From Rubrivivax sp. (GTDB lineage Bacteria > Pseudomonadota > Gammaproteobacteria > Burkholderiales > Burkholderiaceae_C), in the NCBI GenBank assembly GCA_016790425.1, contig JAEUPF010000094.1:1-38886 (forward strand): a stretch of 38,886 bases of DNA, read 5' to 3'. How positions within the stretch are numbered: the first letter of the stretch is position 1; every line of letters starts with the position of its first letter. The position numbers and the translations under genes are program-made. Positions 18,452-21,400 of this stretch are shown in pieces. The notes beneath the pieces were generated by a model. It was not told the origin of the DNA and made no database searches. It was given only the letters and a program-made list of their open reading frames with translations.

Positions 18452-21400
18452 ATGAATGACCGCGTGATTGCTGTGCTGCCCGCGAGGACGAGTGAAGACG
18501 CGGCTGTGGACAACACCGGCGGCGGCATCGGCGGCAGCAGCGGCAGCGGCACCGGCAGCGGCACCGGCAGCGGCACCGGCACCGGCAGCGGCACCGGCAG
18601 CGGCACCGGCAGCGGCACCGGCAGCAGCACCGGCAGCAGCAGCGCCAACGCCGGCCAAGCACAGCCGCAGGTTGCCTCGCCGGCCGCCTTCGTCCACCTG
18701 CGCCTGCACAGCGAGTACTCGGTCGTCGACGGCACGCTGCGCATCGACGACGCCGCGGCCGCAGCGCGCGCCGACCGCATGCCGGCGCTGGCCATCACCG
18801 ACCTCGGCAACCTCTTCGGCGCCGTCAAGTTCTATCGCGCCTGCCGGGCCCAGGGTGTCAAGCCGATCATCGGCGTGGACGTGTGGATGGAGCCGCTGGC
18901 CGAGGCGCGCTTCGTCCAGTGCAGCGACAAGGGCGCGAGCCGCCTCCTGCTGCTGGTGCAGGACGAGCGCGGCTGGCACCACCTCAGCGAGATGCTGGCG
19001 CGCGCCTGGGTCGGCAACGTGCAGCGCAACCAGGCGCTCGTGAAGTGGGCGTGGCTGGAGGAGCTGGGCGGCGGGCTGATCGCGCTTTCGGGCGGTGACC
19101 TCGGCGCCATGGGCATGGCGCTGGTGGCCGGTGACGAGGCGCGCGCCCGCGCCGTCGCCGCCGAGCTGGCGCGCCTGTTCCCCGGGCGCTTCTACATCGA
19201 GCTGCAGCGTGCCGGGCTGCCGCAGCACGAGGCGCATGTGCGCGCCGCGGTACCGCTGGCCGCGGCGATGCGGCTGCCGGTGGTGGCCACGCACCCGGTG
19301 CAGTTCCTCACCCCCGACGACCACGAAGCGCACGAGGCGCGCGTGTGCATCGCCGAGGGCGACACGCTGGCCAACCCGCGCCGCATCAAGCGCTTCACGC
19401 GCGAGCAGCACCTCAAGAGCGCCGCGGCGATGGCGGCGCTGTTCGCCGATGTGCCCAGCGCCTTGGCCAACAGCGTGCACATCGCGCGCCGCTGCAACCT
19501 CGAGCTGACGCTGGGCAAGCCGCAGCTGCCCGACTTCCCCACCCCGCCGGGCGCCGACGGCGTGCCGATGCCGCTGGCCGAATACTTCCGCCAGCAGGCG
19601 CAAGCCGGGCTGGACAAGCGCCTGGCTTCGCTCTACCCCGAAGCCGGGCCGCGCGAACGCGAGCGGCCGCGCTACGAGGAGCGGCTGGCCTTCGAGCTGG
19701 CGACGATCGAGCAGATGGGGTTCGCCGGCTACTTCCTGATCGTCAGCGACTTCATCGTCTGGGCCAAGGGGCACGGCTGTCCGGTGGGGCCGGGGCGCGG
19801 CTCGGGCGCCGGCTCGCTGGTGGCCTACGCGCTGGCGATCACCGACCTCGACCCGCTGGCCTACAAGCTGCTGTTCGAGCGCTTCCTCAACCCCGAGCGC
19901 GTGTCGATGCCCGACTTCGACATCGACTTCTGCCAGGCCAACCGCGACCGCGTCATCGAGTACGTGAAGGACAAGTACGGGCGCGACGCGGTGAGCCAGA
20001 TCGCCACCTTCGGAACGATGGCGGCCAAGGCGGCGCTGCGCGACGTGGGCCGCGTGCTCGGCATGGGCTACGGGCATGTCGACTCCATCGCCAAGCTCAT
20101 CCCCGCGCCGCCGGGCAAGACGGTGACGCTGGCCCCGGTACCCGAGGGCTACGACCCCGAGAAGGACGCGACGATCTACGCCCGCCGCGAGGCGCCGGAG
20201 CTGAACCAGCGCGAAGCGGCCGAAGAGGAGGTGCGCGAACTGCTGGCGCTGGCCACGCGCGTGGAAGGCATCGTGCGCAACGTCGGCATGCACGCCGGCG
20301 GCGTGCTGATCGCGCCGGGCAAGATCACCGACTTCTGCCCGCTGTACCAGCAGCCGGGCAGCGACAGCGCGGTGAGCCAGTTCGACAAGGACGATGTCGA
20401 GGCGATCGGCCTGGTGAAGTTCGACTTCCTGGGCCTGGCGACGCTGACGATCCTCGAGCTCGCGCGCGAGTTCATCCGCATGAAGCCGGGGCAGCAGGAC
20501 TTCGCCTTCGAGCGGCTGCCGTTCGACGACGCGGCGGTCTACAGGCTCTTCACCGAAGGCCGCACCGAGGCGATCTTCCAGTTCGAATCGCGCGGCATGC
20601 AGGGCATGCTGCGCGACGCCAAGCCCTCGCGGCTGGAGGACCTGATCGCGCTGAACGCGATGTACCGGCCGGGGCCGATGGAGAACATCCCCAGCTTCTG
20701 CCGGCGCAAGAACGGCCAGGAGCCCATCGAGTACCCGCACCCGCTGCTGGCCCCGGTGCTCGAGGAGACCTACGGCATCTTCGTCTACCAGGAACAGGTG
20801 ATGCAGGCGGCGCAGGTGCTGGGCCGCTACACGCTGGGCGGCGCCGACCTGTTGCGCCGCGCGATGGGCAAGAAGAAGGCCGAGGAGATGGCCAAGGAGC
20901 GCGGCAAGTTCCGCGCCGGCGCCGAGGGCCTGGGCATCGGCCAGGCCAAGGCCGACGAAGTCTTCAACCTGATGGAGAAGTTCGCCGGCTACGGCTTCAA
21001 CAAGAGCCACGCGGCGGCGTATTCGGTGCTGGCCTACCACACGGCGTGGCTGAAGGTGCACCACCCGGCGGAGTTCTACGCCGCCAACATGACGATCGAA
21101 GCCGACAACACCGACAAGCTGCGCGTGCTGATGGCCGACGCGAAGCTGGCCGGCGTCGCCTTCGAGCCGCCGGACATCAACCGCGGCGGCTGGCGCTTCG
21201 AGCCGGTGGGCGAGCGCACCGTGCGCTACGGCCTGGGCGCGGTGAAGGGCACGGGGCAGGGCGCGATCGAGGCCATCGTCGCGGCGCGCGAAGGCGTGGG
21301 CGTTCGCGAAGGCGAGGGCGGCGGGCCGTTCAGGAGCCTGTTCGACTTCTGCGCCCGCGTCGACCGCCAGCGCGTCAACAAGCGCGTCGTCGAGGCGCTG

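Follow-up and report, generated by a model that had tools for sequence, protein, structure and literature searches.

Does the replicative polymerase of this Rubrivivax sp. carry a long, repetitive N-terminal arm as a translated part of the protein, and if so, how did the arm arise and what might it do? The question is raised by the single dnaE gene (18452-22252, + strand) in the window, which is the whole stretch of 38,886 nucleotides that was analysed. The source assembly is a metagenome bin of 178 contigs that is 82% complete. Pfam and phmmer identify the gene product as a DNA polymerase III alpha subunit of 1266 amino acids.

The body of the protein is that of a DnaE1 polymerase. Its domains follow the order PHP, Pol3 core, fingers, HhH, and OB, with Pfam matches to PHP, DNA_pol3_alpha, DNA_pol3_finger, HHH_6, and OB at residues 82-254, 377-661, 664-825, 901-993, and 1098-1172, respectively, the last one only at the cut-off. 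The PHP domain (PF02811, E 4.7e-41) is encoded at 18695-19213 on the + strand. These domains and their order are common to the window DnaE and the DnaE1-type alpha of E. coli (PDB 5fku, 2hnh, 4jom), and phmmer matches 5fku over query residues 78-1190 (E 3.3e-299). The separate proofreading epsilon subunit that accompanies a DnaE1 is also encoded, as an ordinary dnaQ elsewhere in the genome (G000:C32:24764-25435) that scores above the TIGR01406 cut-off. No second dnaE copy was found in the 82%-complete bin, where two other matches are short arm hits to other genes. A viral or mobile origin of dnaE was considered and rejected; one query of viral_contigs returned 10 pattern matches, none of which was confirmed. 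The window gene is probably an ordinary DnaE1 replicative polymerase with a translated, disordered low-complexity N-terminal arm.

The arm occupies residues 1-79 (18452-18688, + strand). About five residues precede the PHP region in E. coli alpha, compared with 79 in the window DnaE, where a Gly-Ser-Gly-Thr tandem array extends over residues 31-64. The chain of 5fku aligns from its residue 4 onward with the query from residue 78 onward, so that F80 corresponds to approximately the sixth residue of E. coli alpha. At the core of the array are 14 unbroken GGC-ASC hexamers (18542-18625, + strand; residues 31-58 in the codon listing). These hold six perfect GGCAGCGGCACC units, which encode Gly-Ser-Gly-Thr and begin at 18542, 18554, 18566, 18584, 18596, and 18608. 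The array carries the internal variants GGCACC-GGCACC and GGCAGC-AGC, and diverged units run on past the hexamer run to about 18644 (residue 64). Tandem Repeats Finder places the whole hexamer-type array at 18517-18644 on the + strand (residues 22-64, period 6, 79% matches). A sequence-only reading of this DNA had described a long arm before the PHP domain, six perfect 12-bp units with diverged ones over residues 31-64, and a frame without a canonical start between array and PHP domain. The alignment, the unit coordinates, and a scan of the frame for ATG, GTG, and TTG bear out all three.

Slippage is the likely source of the array. The longest hexamer run in 2000 codon shuffles of the dnaE open reading frame was 2, as against the 14 observed, which excludes a chance origin of the run. 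The units are also alike at synonymous sites, as in a slippage region: across residues 23-66, glycine, serine, and threonine take up 41 codons, every one of which is GGC (20 of 20), AGC (13 of 13), or ACC (8 of 8). In the rest of the window dnaE, by comparison, GGC, AGC, and ACC make up fractions of 0.80, 0.67, and 0.35 of the codons for their amino acids, respectively, and threonine prefers ACG (23 of 37). With codons drawn freely, so uniform a set would have a joint probability of approximately 10^-7.8, which makes it probable that the units were duplicated at the DNA level, and recently. Judged from its codons and its distribution, the array is recent. A 12-bp tandem duplication of GAATGACCGCAT across the dnaE start (18442-18467, + strand; 2.2 copies, 92% matches, Tandem Repeats Finder) is a second mark of local duplication. 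We also considered a phase-variable contingency locus. This was rejected because units of 6 and 12 bp are multiples of three, and slippage by whole units alters only the length of the protein. A second in-frame array of the window lies at 36927-37029 on the minus strand; it is of the AGCGAG type and encodes a Ser-Leu-rich repeat. In a minus-strand protein whose start lies at 37090, this repeat would supply the hydrophobic core of the signal peptide.

Arrays of this kind are found in many genomes of the genus. Of 81 genus genomes, 30 contain at least one run of five or more GGCASC hexamers, the source genome included (29 of the 80 others), compared with 9 of 81 for a reversed-pattern control. 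In the source genome, several of the array-bearing reading frames have uncertain starts, and they are diverse. One repeat that closely resembles the dnaE array is a GSGT/GSRT tail that ends a DctQ-type TRAP transporter subunit (L240, 1266-1841, minus strand, on contig C72 of G000, the source genome). On two further contigs, (GGCAGC)n stands near the end of a Gly/Tyr-rich open frame without a Pfam match (L234, C145) and ahead of the MFS domain in a transporter open frame (L235, C160). Short runs lie in a histidine kinase (C11) and an AMP-binding enzyme (C108), and a related array, read in another frame, lies in the linker of an E2-type acyltransferase (C26). The idea that this genome bears a special burden of arrays was dropped, as it has three places with at least five GGCASC hexamers versus about six each in G026 and G051, counted by eye. 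Passages of PMC6821194 describe bacterial low-complexity regions as GGC-rich and attribute them partly to slippage. The window array resembles these regions in being Gly-rich and GGC-coded; it differs in that it sits on a replicative polymerase and was found in one lineage only, whereas the examples stressed in that text are conserved.

To place the start of the gene, we compared dnaE 5' ends from the genus, the family, and the order. Within the genus, dnaE was matched in 77 of 81 genomes, and 5' ends were taken from 72 of the 77 (the 30 best, the window among them, plus 40 and another 2). From named genomes, 80 of 480 relatives were compared. The wider family contributed 60 plus 18 stretches; 40 family genomes with long open frames were picked among about 150 matches listed (385 of 399 genomes matched), together with 20 others. 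An order sample comprised 20 stretches, one of them from the same family according to its code. Removal of rows identical over 300 bases left 199, and subtraction of the 20 order-sample rows and of 2 rows without an in-frame ATG preceded by 120 nt gave 177 distinct family 5' ends.

The window dnaE is most likely transcribed as a leaderless message. A -10-type promoter element, TAGAAT, lies at 18440-18445 on the + strand and ends 6 nt before the start codon, and the upstream region has no Shine-Dalgarno sequence; both are marks of leaderless genes. An upstream ATG at 18444 overlaps the element and reaches a stop after three codons. The arrangement is conserved: TANAAT ends 5-7 nt before the in-frame ATG nearest the VHLR motif in 149 of the 177 family 5' ends (shuffle mean 0.12), a non-random sample that includes 40 members selected for their long open frames and has an excess of close relatives. 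The gap between TANAAT and ATG peaks at 6 (92 5' ends) and 7 (46). An SD-like 4-mer (GGAG, GAGG, or AGGA) at -14 to -5 was found in just 1 of the 177. As a -10 hexamer normally ends at -7, a gap of 6 would make the A of the ATG the first transcribed base. RNA polymerase would thus use TAGAAT and start the transcript at, or within about 1 nt of, the A of ATG 18452. The element is missing at 5-7 nt in 28 of the 177 family 5' ends and in 13 of the 20 order-sample 5' ends (present in 7 of 20). In the majority of the sampled family members, though not universally, dnaE appears to be leaderless.

A different element is seen on the opposite strand. In 81 of the 177 family 5' ends, a reverse-strand -10-like ATTNTA occurs at -100 to -15 of dnaE (shuffle mean 1.5). 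This element, which relatives have some 25-100 nt before dnaE, is perhaps used by a divergent gene on the other strand. Its window counterpart is weaker (ATTGTC near 18407).

Leaderless genes of this type are known from other beta-proteobacteria. Passages of PMC4603805 give TAnAAT as the mapped -10 consensus of Burkholderia cenocepacia and describe a TA-rich motif directly upstream of leaderless genes, and parts of PMC7563307 report that the leaderless mRNAs of Cupriavidus metallidurans are over-represented among those for transcription and for replication, recombination and repair. The window dnaE shares with the B. cenocepacia genes the TAnAAT element directly before the start (PMC4603805), and with the leaderless genes of both sources the lack of a Shine-Dalgarno sequence (PMC4603805, PMC7563307). 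The name dnaE has 0 occurrences in the main texts of PMC4603805 and PMC7563307, and a search of titles and abstract openings found no published report of a leaderless dnaE in this group. PMC8072749, on Deinococcus, mentions both dnaE and leaderless mRNA.

If the message begins at ATG 18452, the array should be translated. We suggest that the ribosome would begin on the 5'-terminal AUG, as the conservation of the upstream element implies, and would make the arm and the array with it. Translation from ATG 18452, array included, is probably what occurs. It is improbable that the arm goes unmade through a non-canonical start after the array, or is removed after synthesis, to leave a mature enzyme that begins at about F80 as in relatives. 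Such an enzyme would resemble the many relatives that have just three residues before VHLR (118 of 143 motif-marked 5' ends). However, the only in-frame ATG, GTG, or TTG codons before V81 are M1, V5, V8, and V19, all upstream of the array, and the codon listing has no CTG or ATH between residue 65 and F80. A CTG first appears at L83, within the conserved VHLR itself, and the -10-type element lies 6 nt before ATG 18452, where a leaderless message would begin. The claim that the array is translated thus gains from both the absence of downstream start codons and a conserved -10-type element that places the likely mRNA 5' end at ATG 18452.

The length of the arm sets the window DnaE apart from its relatives. 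Of 159 distinct 5' ends, 143 had a motif-marked start under a wider motif set, and in these the residues before VHLR were counted. There are 3 residues in 118 of these, and 2, 5, 6, or 7 in another 17. Longer arms comprise 17 residues in three 5' ends, 11, 14, 21, and 26 in one each, and 80 in the window. In a tree of 159 rows, the window and its six nearest relatives (L005-L010, of the same GTDB genus) form one side of a single branch (SH-aLRT 97), and these six have 11-26 residues before VHLR. Their DnaE proteins are 81-84% identical to that of the window over the query region and also bear an N-terminal arm. Their start codons lie 6-7 nt after a TACAAT element, compared with 6 nt after TAGAAT in the window. 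An arm is not unique to this clade. Outside it, at least eight residues precede VHLR in L198 (14) and in L118 (26; genome G046), the latter with a Thr/Ala-rich arm, without a -10 element at the usual place, and one of the 16 5' ends unmarked by a motif. Judged by the nearest start codon, further arms occur in L281 (14) and, in the order sample, in L245 (12) and L260 (10).

Among the 177 family 5' ends, the array is found near dnaE in the window only. None of the arms of L005-L010 has a tandem array or is detectably related to the window arm. The longest GGCASC run near a dnaE start, 14 hexamers in the window, is followed by one of 2 across the 177 family 5' ends. We also compared by eye the contigs that carry arrays in the 29 other array-positive genomes with the dnaE contigs of the same genomes, and none coincide. 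No published description of such an arm on DnaE was found for this group in a search of titles and abstract openings. The sequence-only reading had called the arm unusual and variable in length, and comparison with relatives agrees on the first point and, between species, on the second. The window has 80 codons before VHLR, whereas most relatives have 3 and the longest other arms seen (L009, L118) have 26; between species, arm length varies from 11-26 in near relatives to 80 here.

The relatives point to an order of events. As arms are present throughout the clade and the array is near dnaE in the window only, a short arm would have come first and the array later. In a first step, the small clade that includes the window may have acquired a short extension at the N-terminus, which today measures 11-26 residues and is Ala/Pro/Gly-rich in most members. 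A GGC-ASC stretch in the lineage of the window may then have lengthened through slippage or unequal exchange, each step being a multiple of three bases, so that the frame would never have been broken. Three of the relatives (L005, L007, and L008) have related 17-residue Ala/Pro/Gly-rich arms, identical at 8-11 of 16 residues. This likeness suggests that short arms can persist for a while.

The arm is predicted to be disordered. In the structure model, residues 1-96 have pLDDT < 50, with values of 28-37 when residues 1-90 are taken ten at a time, and residues 1-80 have no secondary structure; the model is a modest one (mean pLDDT 57.9, 20 rows), and other stretches past the arm, for example residues 282-338, are also mostly below 50, so low confidence is not specific to the arm. 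Additions at this end of alpha are known in E. coli. Two solved structures, 4gx8 and 4gx9, are annotated as single chains that combine epsilon with alpha; in these, alpha is matched from chain residue 47 or 56 onward. Parts of PMC3642679 report the purification of N-terminally His6-tagged alpha. These cases indicate that extra residues at the alpha N-terminus can be borne. The PHP domain of the window DnaE may likewise tolerate an added tail, in which case selection would remove neither the arm nor its growth.

We therefore consider it likely that the arm is a tolerated, near-neutral product of slippage in a disordered N-terminus. Near-neutrality is suggested by the lack of conservation of the window arm: set against eight other arms, it was not detectably related to a single one, as in every comparison the observed score was equalled or exceeded by 60 or more of 500 shuffles. 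The sequence comparison gave no pointer to a binding role or a specific function of the array. Yet every one of the seven clade members has kept an arm, and in three relatives the arms are recognisably related, which strict neutrality does not require. The related arms and the clade-wide retention could reflect a weak shared use.

A stronger version of such a use is less probable than an arm that is never made. In that case, the arm would serve the PHP domain as a functional tether or spacer, keeping a partner (epsilon or the clamp) in place or shutting it out, and the number of repeats would set how far the arm reaches. Gly, Ser, and Thr are the make-up of a good linker. At least 11 residues precede VHLR in every one of the seven clade members, the related 17-residue arms of the three relatives could be read in the same way, and passages of PMC3642679 describe the tail of E. 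coli epsilon as wrapping the PHP domain, with its catalytic domain on a flexible linker. But no motif is common to the window arm and the eight others, the epsilon subunit is encoded by an ordinary dnaQ, and like arrays occur in such unrelated frames as the DctQ tail, the MFS-encoding frame, the AMP-binding enzyme, and the histidine kinase. More doubtful again is the proposal that the clade as a whole uses a disordered arm and that in-frame minisatellite slippage tunes the hold of the polymerase on its proofreading subunit or clamp while leaving the gene unbroken. Of the two roles that the sequence-only reading had offered, neutral slippage debris is favoured by the monotonous codons and by the arrays in unrelated genes. 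The tether fares poorly, given a window arm not detectably related to eight others and an ordinary dnaQ, even though seven clade members keep an arm and three of these arms are related.

Least probable of all is that the array or its copy number is an assembly artefact of the metagenome bin, for although it is known from one assembly (178 contigs, 82% complete) with no second strain found, and near-perfect 12-bp repeats are prone to mis-counting, the whole array is only 128 bases (about a common short-read length, though the read type of the source assembly may differ), its internal variants anchor it in a frame that is intact on both sides, and 29 of the other 80 genus genomes contain arrays like it.

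The preferred reading, a tolerated product of slippage, leaves an array that is ordinary in kind and unusual in place. It suggests that the PHP end of a replicative polymerase can bear a long tail built by slippage, and it helps to judge which termini of Pol III alpha are unconstrained. For annotation, the long dnaE start is probably right and not an over-call. A leaderless dnaE across most of the sampled family members, if true, would tie the synthesis of the replicase to initiation at a 5'-terminal AUG.
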